This document shows, in pieces, positions 42,971-51,103 of a stretch of 64,000 bases of DNA. Made by a program: the position numbers and the translations under genes. The notes below the pieces were generated by a model. That model ran no database searches. It saw only the letters and a program-made list of their open reading frames with translations, and was not told where the DNA came from. The stretch lies in the NCBI RefSeq assembly GCF_007981265.1, contig NZ_CP034363.1, positions 1,860,001 to 1,924,000 on the forward strand, given 5' to 3'. This DNA is from Pantoea sp. CCBC3-3-1. Its GTDB lineage: Bacteria; Pseudomonadota; Gammaproteobacteria; Enterobacterales; Enterobacteriaceae. Positions within the stretch are counted from its first letter, which is position 1. The number at the start of each line of letters is the position of its first letter.

Positions 42971-43070
42971 TCAGTAGCGGTCTTGGTTTTGCCATCCGCT
43001 TTGAACTGACTGAAGGAAACCTGGCAGCTATTCAGTGTGTTTAATTTTAGCTGCGCCTTTACGATCTTGT

Positions 43071-43185
43071 CTGAAACGCAATAAAACAAAAAATCCACGC
43101 AATTGCGTGGATTTTATAAGATTTCGCGCTTCTTATGAGGTTCTGTGAAACCTCATGAGACAACAGCGGCTGTTAGACGTTGAAC
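43071..43185. repeat. Direct repeat copy 1 of the ychF 3' flank
   Basis: About 110 bp that closely repeats 49909-50022. It includes the hairpin ATCCACG-caattg-CGTGGAT flanked by A and T runs, the segment GATTTCGCGCTTCTTATGAG and the 3'-terminal codons of ychF (minus strand ... AACGTCTAA). Differences are few in the first 75 bp and rise toward the end. It may be an old attachment-site duplication. Confidence 0.75.
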
Positions 43186-43485: not shown

Positions 43486-44038
43486 ATGAAGCTTAATGTG
43501 CGACAGGTGTGTGCTGCTAAACTCAGAGAGAAAGCCTATAAGCTGGCAGACGGAGCTGGTTCGCGATGTGCAGTTCAACAACACGTTTTAGTCAGTGGCG
43601 CTTGAATGGCACGGAACGAAGGTGAGCCGGTGGTCAGAAGGTTATGCTTCCGACATTATCGAAGCTTTCAATAAAGATATTTCCCCTATATCGGCCAACT
43701 GCCGGTGAATGAAATCAAACCACTTGTTCTGCTTAATGTGCTGCGTCGAATGGAAAGCCGTGGCGCGACAGAGAAGGCCAGGAAGGTTCGCCAGCGCTGC
43801 AGTGAAGTCTTTCGTTACGCCATCGTTACCGGCCGTGCGGAATACAACCCTGCAGCGGATCTACCCAGCGCGATGTCAAGGCATGAATCGAAGCATTATC
43901 CCTTCCTTACCGTTGAGGAGTTACCAGACTTCTTTAAAGCGCTCGCAGGCTTCACCTCAGTCAGTGCTGGCAACGATAGAAAAAAAGGGTCTCATGCTCG
44001 ATGTTTTGTTCGCGTATGACGCTGAGGGCGCACAGTAG
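43486..44038 (+). pseudogene. P4-type tyrosine integrase, degenerate
   Basis: The N-terminus resembles P4 integrases (MKLNVRQVCAAKLREKAYKL, ADGAG). After frameshifts the core-binding region follows (WHGTKVSRWSEGYASDIIEA, PLVLLNVLRRMESRGATEKA). The frame breaks again near 43980 and the catalytic R-H-R-Y domain is absent. It cannot excise the island. Confidence 0.8.
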
Positions 44039-44193: not shown

Positions 44194-45321
44194 ATGAAAA
44201 AAGATATTACAGTAACTTTTGATTCTTCATCGTTTCCTAAAAGTCAAGTTCAGTACTATAATCCGCTAGTTACTGTTAACAAAATTGATGTGAACTGCAT
44301 GCTAATTCACACCGCTCTATGGACTCGCCCCCCCAAACTTACTGGCTTTCATTTATCAGACTTCTGGGCCTGGCTAAGATACTTCCCTGCCTTTTCGAAA
44401 ACCACAACTGACTTGCGACTTCGTAAAGAATGGAAAGACATAGATCCCCATCAAAAAACAATTTTAAGTGATGAAATAGGGGTTGGCTCAACTACATTTA
44501 CATTAATCAATACTTTAGGTTTTCAGGGGTTCATTGATGCAATTTACTTATTGGAAACATTAAACCTTACTCACCTTCTTTTAAATAAATCTAAAAATGG
44601 TAAAGGTAAGACCCCTGATTATATTGGTTTAGACAATTTTGGAAGAGTTATTGCTCTTGAATGCAAAGGAACGCAAAATAAAATAAAGGATTTACACAAG
44701 GCTATAAAAAATGGTATAGATCAAAAGGAAAACCTGACAAAAAATCCCGCTGGTCAAATAAAAATAGGGTTGGTTGGCGGGATATTTATTCCTCAGTTTG
44801 ACAATCCTGAAAATGCGCTAATACACTTCCGTGATCCAGACTGGAATGAATTTAACAAAATCATTTCTGAGGCCGACCCTAAGGAGCTAACTAAAGCCAT
44901 TATTCGTGGATCGGTGATTAAACAATTGTATCTCGCTGGTGCAAATAATTCTGCGAGTGAGTTATCAAATTATGTCAAAGGTAACGGCTTTAAATTTTCT
45001 CCGAAGTCAATCCAAGAATTAAAATCCTTTGAACGAGAAAGTGTGGTTTTTAGCCATAATTTCAAAAATCCAATTGAAGGGGAGATTTCAGATATAAAAT
45101 TTAGCGCCAAAATAGATAATAAAATATTTTCCCTCGTCGAGGATTTAACCTCAAATAAAACCAAGGTATCTGTATTAATTAATGAGCTAAGTGTTACAAA
45201 GGAAAGTTTTGACCGACGGCATAATGCTAACTCATGGTTTGCATATGAAAATGAATATAGTGGAATGATTGTTTCTCCACAAGGTTTTAAGTTTAAATTA
45301 AATTATAAAACAAATGATTAG
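44194..45321 (+). CDS. PD-(D/E)XK nuclease-like protein, orphan
   Basis: A 375-aa AT-rich gene. Residues D142, E156 and K158 form a textbook PD-(D/E)XK core (TPDYIGLDNFGRVIALECKG), with a preceding acidic residue in LSDEIGVGSTTFTLI (E94). That is the fold of restriction and repair nucleases. The rest is not recognisable. It has no methyltransferase or helicase neighbour. Its position in an integrase-marked island suggests defence, but this is inference. The ribosome-binding site is weak. Confidence 0.7.
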   Translation: MKKDITVTFDSSSFPKSQVQYYNPLVTVNKIDVNCMLIHTALWTRPPKLTGFHLSDFWAWLRYFPAFSKTTTDLRLRKEWKDIDPHQKTILSDEIGVGSTTFTLINTLGFQGFIDAIYLLETLNLTHLLLNKSKNGKGKTPDYIGLDNFGRVIALECKGTQNKIKDLHKAIKNGIDQKENLTKNPAGQIKIGLVGGIFIPQFDNPENALIHFRDPDWNEFNKIISEADPKELTKAIIRGSVIKQLYLAGANNSASELSNYVKGNGFKFSPKSIQELKSFERESVVFSHNFKNPIEGEISDIKFSAKIDNKIFSLVEDLTSNKTKVSVLINELSVTKESFDRRHNANSWFAYENEYSGMIVSPQGFKFKLNYKTND

Positions 45322-45467: not shown

Positions 45468-46436
45468 ATCAAGAAGCGTTTTTCCGACGAACAGATCATT
45501 AGCATTCTCCGCGAGGACGAAACCGGGGCTCTGGCCCGTGAACTCTGCCGTAAACATGCTTTTTAGACACTACACTCTGTACCTGCCGCAAGTAGTCTGG
45601 AGCCATGGAGGATTCTGAGGTGAAGTGGCTTAAGTCGCCTGAAAGTAAACGCACGACACAGGAAGCAGTGGGGGTGATGTGTGATGCGACCGGTCTGTAG
45701 CAACCTCGTGCCTGAAGAGCTGAGGTTTTTCCCTGCCGACCTGACGCTAGACGTGTAGCTATCTCTACGTATCCCAGAGCTGGCGCTTGAACACAGACGT
45801 TTTCGTTATCGGCTCATCTGGCAGCTACCGCGTCGGGGGCCTTAGTGTCAATCACATGCACCTTCGTATCAATCACATGCAGTTATACCGCATTTGCCAT
45901 CTCAACTGCCTAAGCGTAAAACGCAGACGACGGCGTAAAAGGCTCGCAACCAAACGGTTTCGCAGTTGCAGCCGGATGTGCCGATTCTGACCTGGTCGAT
46001 CGATTTCGTTATGGACGGACTGACCACTGGTTTCAGGATCAAGTGCTGACCTGTGTGGATGATTTCGCGAAGGAGTACCTGACAATTACCTCAACATTCG
46101 GGGCTCAAGCCAATCATGCAACGTCTAAGTGGTGCAGCATAAGGTAGTTATATATTTCACCGACGATGATAAGACCTGGTAGGTGGAGAGCGAAATTCAC
46201 CTTTAGCTCTGAATCATTGGGTCTTAAGCATGGCATTGAACTGCATCTTATCCAGCTTGGCAAATCATGAAAGTTTCAACGAGCGATTCGAAGATGAGTG
46301 TATGAATGAGCGCTGGTTCAGCGGTACTGTCCACACCGGGAAAGCGATTAATGACTGGTTGCTGAACTATAACAAAAAATATTCACATTTATCGTTTGAC
46401 CACCAGATACCAACTGAATCTGCAGCGGACTGGTAA
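45468..46436 (+). mobile_element. IS3-family insertion sequence, degenerate remnant
   Basis: Both transposase frames are recognisable but broken. OrfA begins KKRFSDEQIISILREDETGA with its ATG changed to ATC and an early stop. OrfB pieces include YRICHLNCLSVKRRRRRKRL, WSIDFVMDGLTTGF in shifted frames, and a C-terminal ERFEDECMNERWFSGTVHTG ending at 46436. Internal parts of the DDE core are missing. The element is immobile. Confidence 0.8.
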
Positions 46437-46664
46437 AATAGGGTGTGGGAAAAACCAACCGACATTACCTCTTGATGGGATATCTAATCTTGGGGGCTAG
46501 GTGGGCCTCGTGAGTCATGTCGCAAAAATGCCTGAGAAAGGCTGACACAGTTTGACAGTTGGTTGTGATTACCTCATTAGCTGAAAGTCATACGTACGAA
46601 ATATTACTCAATTATCAGTCGAATATGCCGTTAATAAACATATGGATTGAAAGGAACAGAAACA

Positions 46665-47168
46665 ATGAAGCAACTATGGGAAAAACTGGAAGCCATTCTG
46701 CAAGACACTGACCCTGAGGTATTAGCAGATCTTGCACCTCCGGCTACAGATGAAGAAATCGCCAGGTTAGAGCATGCTCTGGGTGTAATTTTGCCTGCCG
46801 ATTTTGTGGCCTTCATGAAAATTCACAATGGTCAGCGCGGTATGAGCCATGGATTATTTGATGAATGCGAATTCTTATCCACTTCACGCATTTTACAGGA
46901 GTGGCGTGTCTGGAAAGATTTACTTGATGGTGGAGATTTTGATGGAGCTGAGTCGTGTCCGCAAAGCGGTATTCGTCCGGAATGGTGGAGTCCCGGCTGG
47001 ATCCCTTTTACCTACAATGGGGCGGGCGATCATCTTTGTCTTGACCTTGCACCGACGGATGTTGGGATTCGCGGGCAGATTATCATGCTCTGGCATGATG
47101 ATGGTGCGCGTGAAAAACAAGCGGACAGCTTCATTCATTGGTTCAAACAGTATGTAGAGCAAATGTAG
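46665..47168 (+). CDS. SMI1/KNR4 (SUKH) family protein
   Basis: A 167-aa SUKH-fold protein (PATDEEIARLEHALGVILPA, DFVAFMKIHNGQ, WIPFTYNGAGDHLCLDL). Bacterial members are often immunity proteins against contact-dependent or polymorphic toxins. It ends 37 bp before the HNH-like membrane gene, so it could be cotranscribed with it and even be its immunity protein (inference). I use the ATG at 46665 with AAGGA 9 nt upstream, rather than the TTG at 46647. Confidence 0.85.
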   Translation: MKQLWEKLEAILQDTDPEVLADLAPPATDEEIARLEHALGVILPADFVAFMKIHNGQRGMSHGLFDECEFLSTSRILQEWRVWKDLLDGGDFDGAESCPQSGIRPEWWSPGWIPFTYNGAGDHLCLDLAPTDVGIRGQIIMLWHDDGAREKQADSFIHWFKQYVEQM

Positions 47169-47205
47169 GCCTTTTTGCAATTGATTCGATAAACTTGGAG
47201 GGTAA

Positions 47206-48744
47206 ATGGATTTAACATATGAAGAGTTAAAACAGCAGCGTCTGCAAAAGCTATTTCACGATTGCCAGCAACAAGTATTGTCACAAGTTATTGGGCCTTT
47301 CGGGCTTTCAATGGCCATGTTTGAGGATCGCAATGGCGGCAATGTAACCACGCTGCATAATTTCGATCGCGAAGAGTCGGATTTCATAGCTGATAAAGAC
47401 ATGTCCAGTCATGCGAAATCGCGTCAGGATTACCAGCGCAAAGAGTATGAAAGTAAAGGTTTTACAAAAAAAAGCGAGAAACTACGGGCCGGTGGTGTTG
47501 ATGGTTATACGGGAAAAACGACCAATGCGGCGGATATGGATCTCGACCATGTCACTTCATTAAATACATTGTCCAAAAACAAGAAATTGCATCTTGCTCT
47601 GGAAACCGGGAAAGGCGTTGAAAAATTAGTCAAAATGGCCAATGCCGACGAAAACCTGGTGACCACACATAAGTCGATTAACCGTTCAAAAGGCGCTGCT
47701 GAACTCGATACTTTTGCAGAAAAAAATGGTAAAAGATTTGAGCTGGATCCAGAGCGAGTAGCAGCAGCGAAGAAACAATCGAAGGACCATATTTCGACAA
47801 CGCTTAACTCGGCGCTGATGAAAAAACAAAGCACAGAGTTGCTGCAGACTGGCGGCCAACAAGCGTTGCATATGGGGCTCAGACAAGCACTTGGATTACT
47901 GCTCACTGAACTGGTAAATGGCTTGTTTAACGAATTTAAAGTGCTCATTCAACACGGCGTTGAGGTGGGAAAAACATTGTTTGAGGAGATCCGACAGCGC
48001 TTAATGCGTGTAGTTGCTTCCGTGGCCAAAAAAATTCCCGATGCGCTGGGACAAATGTTCCAGGGCGGAGTGAGTGGATTCATGAGTAATTTACTTACCT
48101 TCTTGCTTAATAATTTTCTCTCAACCGCAAAGCGTTTCGTGACCATGATTCGGGAAGGGCTATTGGGACTTTTCCGGGCATTTAAAATGATATTCTTTCC
48201 GCCGGAACTTATGACGGCACAGCAAGCGTTACAGGAAGGACTGAAAATTCTGACTACTGTCATCGTAACTTCAGTCGGTATGTTATTGAACGAAAGTATC
48301 GTGACGTTTATGGCGACCGTACCGTTTCTGAAACCTTTTGCAGATATATTAACCCCAGTGCTTATAGGCATTGCCACCGGATTGCTTTCTGCCTTTCTCG
48401 CATATCAGATAGACACGTTTTTTGATCGCTCCCGTTTTACGCTAAGCGAAAAACTCATGGATGAGATGTTCGCAGATAGCAAACGTCGGGAAGCGTTTGC
48501 CAGTGAGCTGGTGACACTTTCAGAAAGTTCTCTGGGTAATATTGAAAATTACGCGACCGCTATAACCCAATATCAAGCTATTGGGGCAAACCTGGCTACT
48601 GCCACAATTTCAACTAAAGCAACATTGGTATGTATTGAGAAAACAACTACTGAGACCGCTATGCAGGTGGCACGGAGTACCGCTGCAATTGCGTTTATTA
48701 ATGAAAGCCAGGCTGAAATTGATGACTTTCTAAAAAATATTTGA
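47206..48744 (+). CDS. Membrane protein with N-terminal HNH-like motif
   Basis: A 512-aa protein, family not known to me. Residues 100-162 look like an HNH nuclease core: D114-H115 in MDLDHVTSL, N150 in ADENLVTTH and N159 in INRSKG, as in several phage-type HNH proteins. A helical region follows (190-340), then two strongly hydrophobic segments (about 346-372 and 378-402), and a helical C-terminus. The first 100 residues are polar. It lies between a SUKH gene (37 bp) and a coiled-coil gene (10 bp) on the same strand. A membrane-anchored nuclease effector is plausible but unproven. Confidence 0.65.
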   Translation: MDLTYEELKQQRLQKLFHDCQQQVLSQVIGPFGLSMAMFEDRNGGNVTTLHNFDREESDFIADKDMSSHAKSRQDYQRKEYESKGFTKKSEKLRAGGVDGYTGKTTNAADMDLDHVTSLNTLSKNKKLHLALETGKGVEKLVKMANADENLVTTHKSINRSKGAAELDTFAEKNGKRFELDPERVAAAKKQSKDHISTTLNSALMKKQSTELLQTGGQQALHMGLRQALGLLLTELVNGLFNEFKVLIQHGVEVGKTLFEEIRQRLMRVVASVAKKIPDALGQMFQGGVSGFMSNLLTFLLNNFLSTAKRFVTMIREGLLGLFRAFKMIFFPPELMTAQQALQEGLKILTTVIVTSVGMLLNESIVTFMATVPFLKPFADILTPVLIGIATGLLSAFLAYQIDTFFDRSRFTLSEKLMDEMFADSKRREAFASELVTLSESSLGNIENYATAITQYQAIGANLATATISTKATLVCIEKTTTETAMQVARSTAAIAFINESQAEIDDFLKNI

Positions 48745-48754
48745 GAACAATAAG

Positions 48755-49789
48755 ATGAGTTTGTTAAACAAGCAGGAACTTCAGGTCATTCAGGCGTTTT
48801 CGTCCGCAGATTTGCCGGAACGTGTCTTTCGCGACAGTAACATTAAAGAATTAATCAGCGGTATGACGGAGGAGCAGCAAACAGTTCAGAAGAGCGCAAA
48901 GGATCTTGACCGCCTGCGCAGGGAACAAAGGGATGGAAACTTTATAACTAACTGGTGGAATGATCGCGACGATGTGTTACAGGATGCACAGATTGATCTC
49001 AATAAAGCCATTGGTCGCCTGACGCAAAAATCTTCTCAGTTATTGATTGTCAATACGGCACTATCCAAACTTCTGAACGAGCAACAACAGATTTTATTGA
49101 ATCAGCAAAACATTCTGGAAGTTCAAACAGGCTCCCTTGCTGAACAAAATGAACAGATCCTGAAACAACAGGTGCTACTGGAAAAACAGCAAAAAGAGAT
49201 TAATAAGGCCAACCAGGGATTAATGGATGCAAAAGGAGTAACGCAAGATCAAGCTAAGCAACTGATTGGCTGCGTAAAACGGGTGACAGAGGCGGAAAAC
49301 AAAATTGGCGAGGCAAACGCTACCCTGCTGGCTGAACTTGAAAAGCGTATCACTAACTTTTCTTCGCATCTTGCACAAAAATTGCAAAGTGGCCTGGAGG
49401 AGCAGGGAAAACGGCACAGCATTCTCGAACAGACAATGGAGGACAATCAGGCTGTTCAAAAGGGTTTCGTTGAGAAGATGCAACAGTCCTTGTTGCAGGA
49501 ACAGCAGTTTTCCCATCAGCAACTGCTCGCTGAGCTTGAGCGAAATCGTCTGAATTTACTTAATTCGGTCAAATCAACCATAAACCAGTGTGATGCGTTC
49601 CAGCATGAGTTATCCATTGTCGTGGCGCAGCACGCTGATGGGCAAATAGTCATTGATAATGCTATTGCTGAGTTACAGGTGAAATTTTTCAAATCCCAAT
49701 TCCGTCACCGCTTTGTACTGACATTGATGGCCAGTGTTGTTGGGCTTTCTGTCGGCTGGCAAATTGCGCAGCACTTTATGATGCTTTGA
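48755..49789 (+). CDS. Coiled-coil protein with C-terminal membrane anchor
   Basis: A 344-aa protein, not recognised by family. Residues about 40-300 are rich in Gln, Glu, Leu and Lys with heptad-like pattern (EQQQILLNQQNILEVQTGSL), predicting long coiled coils. One hydrophobic helix at the extreme C-terminus (RFVLTLMASVVGLSVGWQIA) should tail-anchor it in the inner membrane. It starts 10 bp after the HNH-like membrane gene, so the two probably form a complex. Confidence 0.65.
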   Translation: MSLLNKQELQVIQAFSSADLPERVFRDSNIKELISGMTEEQQTVQKSAKDLDRLRREQRDGNFITNWWNDRDDVLQDAQIDLNKAIGRLTQKSSQLLIVNTALSKLLNEQQQILLNQQNILEVQTGSLAEQNEQILKQQVLLEKQQKEINKANQGLMDAKGVTQDQAKQLIGCVKRVTEAENKIGEANATLLAELEKRITNFSSHLAQKLQSGLEEQGKRHSILEQTMEDNQAVQKGFVEKMQQSLLQEQQFSHQQLLAELERNRLNLLNSVKSTINQCDAFQHELSIVVAQHADGQIVIDNAIAELQVKFFKSQFRHRFVLTLMASVVGLSVGWQIAQHFMML

Positions 49790-49908
49790 TTGTGTTAAAC
49801 CGCATCGCTTATGCAGATGCGGTTTGGACTGCCCCGCGACTGTAGACAAATTCTGTCCTTCACGACGGGGGCAGTTCAAAGGCCACCGGACTGACGTCAC
49901 CGAGATGA

Positions 49909-50022
49909 CTGAAACGCTATAAAACAAAAAATCCACGCAATTACGTGGATTTTATAAGATTTCGCGCTTCTTATGAGGTTCAATCAAACCTCATGAGACC
50001 ACAATAACGATTTAGACGTTAA
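49909..50022. repeat. Direct repeat copy 2 (native ychF 3' flank)
   Basis: This copy includes the true end of ychF and its downstream hairpins. It repeats 43071-43185 with about one difference in twenty over the first 75 bp. The two copies bracket 6.7 kb of accessory DNA in direct orientation. Confidence 0.75.
49925..49954 (-). terminator. ychF: Rho-independent terminator of ychF
   Basis: Stem ATCCACG / CGTGGAT extended by A-T pairs (AAAA/TTTT), about 60 bp after the ychF stop on the minus strand. A second hairpin (CTCATGAGGTTTG ... AACCTCATAAG) lies between it and the gene. Confidence 0.65.
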
Positions 50023-51103
50023 ACAGGAAGTTCATTACGTCGCCATCTTTAACGATGTAATCTTTACCTTCAGAACGCATTTTCCCGGCTTCTTTTGCGC
50101 CTTGCTCGCCCTTGTAGGTAATGTAATCTTCATAGCCGATAGTCTGAGCGCGGATAAAGCCTTTCTCGAAATCGGTATGGATTTTACCCGCAGCCTGTGG
50201 AGCGGTAGCGCCAACAGGGATCGTCCATGCACGCACTTCCTTCACGCCCGCGGTGAAGTAAGTTTGCAGGTTCAGCAGCGAATAGCCTGCACGGATTACG
50301 CGGTTCAGGCCTGGCTCTTCAATACCCAGCTCGGCCATAAACTCTTCGCGATCGGCATCTTCCAGCTCGGCGATATCAGATTCCACCGCGGCGCAAACCG
50401 GCACCACAACAGAACCTTCTTTCTCTGCAATCGCACGAACCTGATCCAGGTACGGGTTGTTCTCGAAGCCGTCTTCGTTAACGTTTGCAATGTACATGGT
50501 TGGCTTCAGGGTCAGGAAGCTCAGGTAGCGGATTGCTGCCTTATCTTCTTCGCTCAGACCCAGCGAGCGCAGCATGCCAGCGTTCTCTAAATGAGGCAGA
50601 CATTTTTCCAGCGCAGCCTGTTCCGCTTTCGCATCTTTATCGCCGCCTTTCGCACGTTTCTGAACGCGTTGCAGCGCACGTTCGCAGGTATCGAGATCCG
50701 ACAGCGCCAGCTCGGTATTGATCACCTCAATATCATCCGCCGGGTCAACTTTGTTGTTAACGTGGATAATGTTGTCGTTTTCAAAGCAGCGCACAACGTG
50801 ACCGATAGCTTCGGTTTCACGAATGTTGGTCAGGAACTGGTTGCCCAGGCCTTCGCCTTTCGACGCGCCTTTTACCAGACCCGCGATATCAACGAATTCC
50901 ATGGTGGTTGGCAGAATGCGCTGCGGCTTCACGATTTCTGCCAGGGCGTCGAGACGGGAGTCAGGCATTGGCACCACGCCGGTGTTCGGCTCAATGGTAC
51001 AGAACGGGAAGTTGGCTGCTTCGATGCCCGCTTTAGTTAACGCATTGAACAGGGTGGATTTCCCGACGTTTGGCAGGCCGACAATACCGCATTTGAATCC
51101 CAT
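50012..51103 (-). CDS. ychF: Redox-regulated ATPase YchF (OLA1 family)
   Basis: A 363-aa Obg-superfamily P-loop protein that prefers ATP and binds ribosomes. The G1 motif is [19 protein letters not shown], and the segment [20 protein letters not shown] follows. The base-recognition position reads NVNEDG instead of NKxD, as in OLA1-type ATPases. The C-terminal TGS domain ends [11 protein letters not shown]. It normally sits next to pth in E. coli; here about 3 kb containing a SulP transporter and an EAL gene separates them. Confidence 0.97.

Follow-up and report, generated by a model that had tools for sequence, protein, structure and literature searches.

A three-gene operon of Pantoea sp. 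CCBC3-3-1, here called A-B-C, was found to be a further example of a candidate defence system that a database already lists, in which a nuclease-like motif and membrane-associated segments occur within one protein; its role is likely to be defence. The operon lies in a window of 64,000 nucleotides (NZ_CP034363.1, positions 1,860,001 to 1,924,000 of the forward strand), to which all coordinates refer; handles beginning with L and G denote other loci and genomes respectively. Gene A (46665-47168, + strand; ATG start, 167 aa) encodes a SUKH-1 (SMI1/KNR4) protein, which scored 87.6 bits against a curated cut-off of 25.4 bits for PF09346 (E = 1.3e-24), so that its first identification as SUKH stands; an alternative TTG start upstream, at 46647, would extend the product to 173 aa. 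Gene B (47206-48744, +) encodes an HNH-like putative nuclease of 512 aa with a C-terminal membrane domain, and gene C (48755-49789, +) a coiled-coil, tail-anchored protein of 344 aa. The layout described in the initial annotation of this DNA, three same-strand genes separated by 37 and 10 bp, was reproduced. Each protein was covered nearly end to end by a PADLOC-DB model of a single candidate system, PDC-M40A (PDLC04629, 5.5e-83), PDC-M40B (PDLC04630, 2.7e-267) and PDC-M40C (PDLC04634, 3.1e-164), and since the genes also adjoin one another, the locus belongs to PDC-M40. The models were present in PADLOC-DB 2023 (PADLOC-DB v2), where PDC-M40 is listed as a putative defence candidate (PDC); the initial description of an undescribed system without a named counterpart is therefore not supported, its observation being confirmed and its interpretation partly supported. 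PDCs are the output of a guilt-by-embedding screen, the majority being experimentally unvalidated, according to the available part of PMC12988326. A literature search found no paper naming or testing PDC-M40, the matches to 'M40b' being unrelated uses, and 'PDC-M09' was likewise not found. The window operon has the same composition as PDC-M40, for which no published mechanism was found, and the fresh evidence given here concerns the function of its parts.

The conclusion that B has an N-terminal HNH/DHNNK-like nuclease motif was supported by conservation and by library matches. The motif (47500-47691, +; residues 99-162) comprises D114, H115, N146, N150, N159 and K162. When 30 B homologues were realigned, H115, N150, N159 and G230 were the only invariant residues among the 512 positions of the window protein, and D114 was conserved in 29 of the 30; the putative catalytic histidine and asparagine were thus conserved at the spacing expected of the HNH/His-Me superfamily. 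An alignment of 20 homologues had seven invariant positions of 512, six of them within residues 99-159; N146 occurred in 16 and K162 in 17 of these 20, the choice of N146 as the third asparagine being our own. The DH, N, N, N, K residues agree with those listed for Tox-DHNNK in the available text of PMC3482391, where this clade is assigned to the HNH/EndoVII fold and SUKH is listed among its immunity proteins. Nineteen N-terminal regions (the 20 aligned before, with L044 excluded) were scanned singly. Endonuclease VII of PHROG matched eight of the 19 at E ≤ 0.1, with 5.5e-6 as the best value and 3.2e-5 for the window protein, and at the same threshold PADLOC HEC-05 matched five and SspE one (best 1.4e-4 and 4.8e-4); at E ≤ 5, Pfam GmrSD_C matched five (best 6.2e-5) and HNH_4 two (best 0.11). 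Because these sequences are related, rather than independent, the match counts overstate the support. The HNH-like core initially proposed around D114-H115, N150 and N159 was therefore sustained, with its residues present, its H-N-N invariant, and modest matches to endonuclease VII and GmrSD_C. A profile of the whole B family gave no match to PDB sequences at E ≤ 1. Some B homologues (L051:3965-5539 and B-matching plasmid records) bear the annotation cobalamin adenosyltransferase, in part of the cases together with YkgJ; a Pfam scan of four B homologues identified no such domain, and the label was rejected.

The C-terminal half of B was predicted to associate with the membrane. An amphipathic, partly basic helical stretch (residues 241-325; 47926-48180, +; hydrophobic moment up to 0.69) is followed by a hydrophobic hairpin identified by hydropathy (residues 343-402; 48232-48411, +), the segments of which, at 348-366 and 381-399, are the two hydrophobic segments noted at the outset. 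Similarly, C conformed to its earlier description as a coiled coil with a C-terminal membrane helix: leucine, lysine, glutamate and glutamine made up 42% of its residues, its predicted structure was a long, all-helical rod (mean predicted local distance difference test score, pLDDT, 72.1; predicted template modelling score 0.32), and its sole hydrophobic segment by hydropathy was a C-terminal membrane anchor at residues 320-338 (49712-49768, +). One NCBIfam match stood above noise, that of C to SMC (4.6e-4), and was attributed to the coiled coil. Neither B nor C matched any Pfam family at E ≤ 1.

The three genes have been retained together. The order A-B-C was observed in all six loci of a genome-contig scan (Citrobacter, Lelliottia, Kosakonia, Comamonas, Edwardsiella and Pseudomonas), and the ratio of non-synonymous to synonymous substitution rates (dN/dS) of A, B and C, comparing the window with L023, L024 and L025, was 0.05-0.27 (dS exceeding 1, and so saturated, against L024 and L025); on these grounds, the arrangement is not due to chance. 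Among 295 genomes of the family, 14 had a B homologue, as did none of 14 control genomes. The M40C profile gave two strong matches among the 295, both adjoining B and bearing out the expected co-occurrence of B with C; these genomes, Pantoea sp. CCBC3-3-1 itself and G094 (the Citrobacter of L023), were those that combined SUKH with M40C. Two further, marginal matches (7e-4 and 7.7e-4) were probably coiled-coil noise. Identity of 90% to L023 extended over 46496-49822 (+), comprising the upstream region, A, B, C and a hairpin, and because it ended on both sides, the operon was regarded as a cassette of its own; identity to L025 spanned 46540-49789. The hairpin, directly 3' of C (49796-49826, +; -19.6 kcal/mol, z = -4.0, one of 200 shuffles being equally good), had no clear T run and was not listed by the terminator scan; it is possibly the operon end or an RNA-stabilising stem.

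Several relatives of the operon were found in defence-type surroundings. GajA and GajB of Gabija adjoined L023 and an Mrr/ResIII protein adjoined L024, L028 had BrxC and PglX of BREX upstream and GmrSD downstream, GmrSD lay about 2 kb from B in L035, and AbpA was annotated about 8 kb from B in L047 (where L047:2-500, an incomplete edge fragment in the neighbour scan, was uninformative).

Judged by their anatomy, B would suit the part of an effector, C that of a sensor or scaffold, and A that of a restraint. The reading that we favour, with about even confidence, is that A-B-C is an inner-membrane anti-phage operon. B would be a DNA nuclease of HNH fold (DHNNK-like), whose C-terminal amphipathic helices and hydrophobic hairpin would insert into, or lie on, the membrane. 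C, as a long, membrane-anchored coiled coil, would sense either a phage entry protein or the disturbance that comes with entry of the phage genome, and would gather B at the entry site; B would then cut phage DNA on its way in, before the chromosome is reached, and A would bind and restrain the nuclease in the absence of phage. We infer each of these biochemical steps, including the DNA substrate, the place of action, the recruiting part played by C and the inhibitory part played by A. There are precedents for a membrane-located nuclease in defence, and these support such a reading. SNIPE (PD-lambda-1) is a membrane-bound nuclease reported to cleave phage DNA at injection (PMC13190303), which is the role proposed for B. 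However, SNIPE is described there with DUF4041, GIY-YIG and an N-terminal membrane part, whereas in B the HNH motif is N-terminal and the membrane domain C-terminal, and the coiled-coil partner is a separate protein; no match of B or C to DUF4041 or GIY-YIG was found in Pfam at E ≤ 1. Zorya, for which the text seen of PMC12904381 reports a membrane component and partner proteins recruited to degrade injected DNA, is comparable in this division of labour, but B joins nuclease motif and membrane segments in one polypeptide; A, B and C gave no PADLOC match to ZorA or ZorB at E ≤ 1, the search covering these three proteins rather than the rest of the genome.

The neighbours of B fell into several classes. 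In the 14 family genomes, B was accompanied by SUKH and M40C in two cases, by an M09A-like protein in eight, by a JukA homologue in two and by a small glycine-zipper protein in one; in the last genome, B had no visible partner. The M09A match spanned just part of the partner and the same model matched an archaeal control, and may represent a general membrane domain. In a phylogenetic tree of 30 B sequences, the main coiled-coil loci grouped together (support 0.75), and the M09A loci and JukA loci likewise each formed a group of their own (both 1.0). The B of pQBR103, which has a small partner, was placed beside the JukA clade (0.81), and other small-partner loci fell elsewhere. L048 and L064, where the neighbour looked coiled-coil-like by eye and was not matched by the C profile, grouped with L044. 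Shorter or second copies of loci already included (L001-L022, L046, L052-L054) are omitted from the tree, as are L058, which is a near copy, L032, L050 and L057, which are broken, and the marginal genome matches G355 and G393. The pattern is read as the result of old partner changes around one putative effector.

The JukA class connects B with a described defence system, JukAB (jumbo phage killer), in which JukA is the sensor. A protein of this class directly precedes B in three loci, L034 (2.4e-59), L035 and L047; JukA occurred in 45 of the 295 family genomes, adjoining B in two (G003 and G230), so that most JukA genes there had different neighbours. The JukA homologues of 404 aa (L034:5842-7053, L035 and L047) carry an extra C-terminal domain. 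In a 13-sequence set, this extension (residues about 290-389) matched the small membrane partners of pQBR103 (2.7e-8) and L045 (1.2e-4), and neither M40C-type nor M09A-like partners matched it. The adjoining JukA genes, with the resemblance of their extension to small partners, tie B to a sensor-effector logic. JukA is reported to recruit effectors to the entry vesicle and JukB to form pores (PMC13282480). Juk and B-containing loci are alike in having a sensor and a membrane effector in two parts; they differ in that the window effector carries an HNH motif, and the window's own genome had no JukA match.

Homologues of B were also encoded in seven phage records (Aeromonas phages D3, D6, D9 and LAh10), at full length when an M09A-type B was the query. 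All four are jumbo phages of about 260 kb, and in the two inspected, D9 (L029:3003-5599) and LAh10 (L051:2943-5539), the B homologue is preceded by a gene for a 336-aa membrane protein, that of D9 being M09A-like (1.3e-16); the pair resembles a bacterial defence pair, here carried by a phage. Viral contig scans with single B proteins (the window's, L042, L029, L034, L049, L045 and L031) yielded a confirmed relative for none of the seven. A broader proposal, which we hold tentatively and with more doubt than belief, is that B represents a modular family of membrane-inserting HNH nucleases re-wired to unrelated sensors (C, PDC-M09A-like, small glycine-zipper proteins and JukA). Membrane insertion and DNA cutting in one protein may then reach phage DNA that a membrane conceals, as in the early vesicle formed by nucleus-forming jumbo phages, and the Aeromonas jumbo phages would have captured the module against rival phages.

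The association with JukA also raises the alternative that B is mainly a membrane-perforating effector like JukB, opening the entry vesicle or inner membrane, with its HNH part secondary or cutting DNA so exposed. The JukA-class partner adjoining B in L034, L035 and L047, the strongly amphipathic C-terminal half of B, and the tetrameric pores reported for JukB on the entry vesicle (PMC13282480) would all be consistent with this. However, B matched PDC-M40B alone at E ≤ 1 in a library that includes a JukB model, and HNH residues are three of the four invariant positions in B; we consider perforation as the main function rather unlikely. The JukB model matched none of 229 class genomes, but as it also matched none of 14 controls, this is no evidence of absence.

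Gene A bears on a second alternative, in which A is an antitoxin and phage infection frees B to destroy the host DNA, causing cell death (abortive infection or toxin-antitoxin). A SUKH-1 gene lies directly 5' of B, with a 37-bp gap, and SUKH proteins are listed as immunity to HNH toxins (PMC3482391). Against this, no SUKH was detected at the B+C loci L031 (where IS5 lies just upstream) and L063, and tethering at the membrane suggests a spatial restraint; toxin-antitoxin action was judged unlikely. The same two loci count against part of the entry-site nuclease model, since restraint by A cannot be obligatory if SUKH is dispensed with; by gene content, SUKH seems to be accessory to the system and not to belong to its core.

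B was distributed thinly and in part on plasmids. In a phylum sample, it matched seven of 398 genomes, two of them marginally, and it matched 68 of 72,556 plasmid records. C matched nine plasmid records, all Klebsiella. Of nine Klebsiella plasmids listed with 98% of B, eight also carried C; in the ninth, CP031809, an IS5 copy lies directly after B and C was not found. The ninth C-bearing record retained C, with B interrupted by an insertion sequence. In the plasmid copies L058, L057, L050 and L032, either B or C was broken by insertion sequences within or beside it, or the genes were split into short frames, which suggests that the system is being lost. A DNA search of E. coli genomes returned no record with 80% of the cassette; the 30 of 232 matches that were listed concerned just its last 80 or so bases, which are IS3-type DNA. 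The plasmid records would suit a role in keeping out plasmids or other incoming DNA (anti-conjugation) instead of phage, but the JukA-class partner at some loci, the B homologue in jumbo phages and the phage-defence genes near relatives make this very unlikely. Least probable is an interbacterial competition toxin with SUKH immunity, since the resemblance of B and A to the Tox-DHNNK and Imm-SUKH pairs of polymorphic toxin systems (PMC3482391) stops at the DH, N, N, N, K residues and the SUKH neighbour: the nuclease part of B is N-terminal and not the C-terminal tip of a secreted toxin, no delivery, secretion or repeat domain was found in B or C (Pfam, NCBIfam), the immunity gene comes first, the partners are coiled-coil and JukA-type, and defence genes lie near several relatives.

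A number of results weigh against the interpretation of A-B-C as a phage entry-site nuclease system. For the nuclease, the window's own HNH region matched no Pfam family even at E ≤ 5, a profile of the HNH region returned two weak PDB matches at E ≤ 10 (0.1, to an HNH endonuclease, and 1.8), and the AlphaFold model of B, from seven input sequences, had a pLDDT of 43.9, too low for fold searches. For its partners, C could be structural and not a sensor, L044 had none (one of the 30 B loci), and the link through the JukA extension was uneven, profile comparison giving 76% for pQBR103, 28% for the L045 group and 3% for L033. For defence, the open reading frame (ORF) lists of L025, L026 and L027 contained no defence gene by eye, and the defence neighbours of other relatives came from scans of proteins that were themselves picked by eye. 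Finally, a scan of the + strand gave no promoter-like site.

The operon occupies an island beside ychF (50012-51103, - strand). The integrase-marked island of the initial annotation was correct as to the island and its position; the tyrosine integrase proved to be just a broken remnant (43486-43959, +; Phage_int_M 8.8e-19), for which tblastn against an intact E. coli relative of 398 aa gave three frame-shifted pieces (residues 1-25, 87-133 and 126-224), the C-terminal part not being found. A 98-bp direct repeat, which the initial annotation had not reported, frames the island; it was first detected when a query of the ychF flank produced a second match. The left copy (43068-43165, +) is a candidate attachment site, and the right copy (49906-50003, +), identical at 91 of 98 positions, adjoins the ychF 3' end. 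A tRNA gene search found none in the window. Within the island, a 375-aa ORF (44194-45321, +) had a PD...ExK-like motif by eye and no Pfam, PADLOC or NCBIfam match at E ≤ 1, and is possibly a further nuclease or defence gene; 5' of the operon there is a degraded IS3-family (ISSen4-like) remnant (45468-46376, +; three blastn pieces, 68-76% identical). Similarity to the ychF flank started at or beside the right repeat copy in 19 further genomes of the genus, taken from a larger group: at 49901-49928 in 14 and at 49996-50014 in five. In the congener G902, a segment of about 22 kb lies between two weaker repeat copies (77 of 98 bp; 88% and 77% identical), and seven ORFs at the ychF site of this genome (L103), chosen for a defence-like look from 12 listed (at least 100 aa), all matched defence models at 1e-10 or better: Shango SngA, SngB and SngC, a CBASS cyclase, E1-E2 and SAVED-endonuclease, and a Mokosh-like gene. 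The congener G892 had a single repeat copy beside ychF within the 6.3 kb inspected. The ychF 3' end may thus be an integration site with 98-bp repeats and a defence hotspot of the genus.

As a locus discovery, the operon is ordinary; what makes it interesting is a putative membrane nuclease that swaps partners, has a link to Juk-type immunity and can be put to the test. What is new concerns the invariance of the B motif, its C-terminal membrane half, the differing partner classes, the 98-bp repeats and the jumbo-phage homologues, together with the Gabija, BREX and GmrSD genes near some B relatives and the Shango, CBASS and Mokosh-like genes at the ychF site of one congener. Membrane-localised nucleases that cut phage DNA at entry represent a newly recognised means of discriminating foreign from own DNA, by place and not by sequence. 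If the proposed reading is true, an HNH-based family with multiple partners would be added to these entry-site nucleases, and the candidate PDC-M40 would be connected with Juk-type immunity by effectors in common and by a fusion-type link between domains. H115, N150 and N159 make the nuclease claim directly testable, and since jumbo phages encode the putative effector too, it may be asked whether phages use this device in competition with one another.

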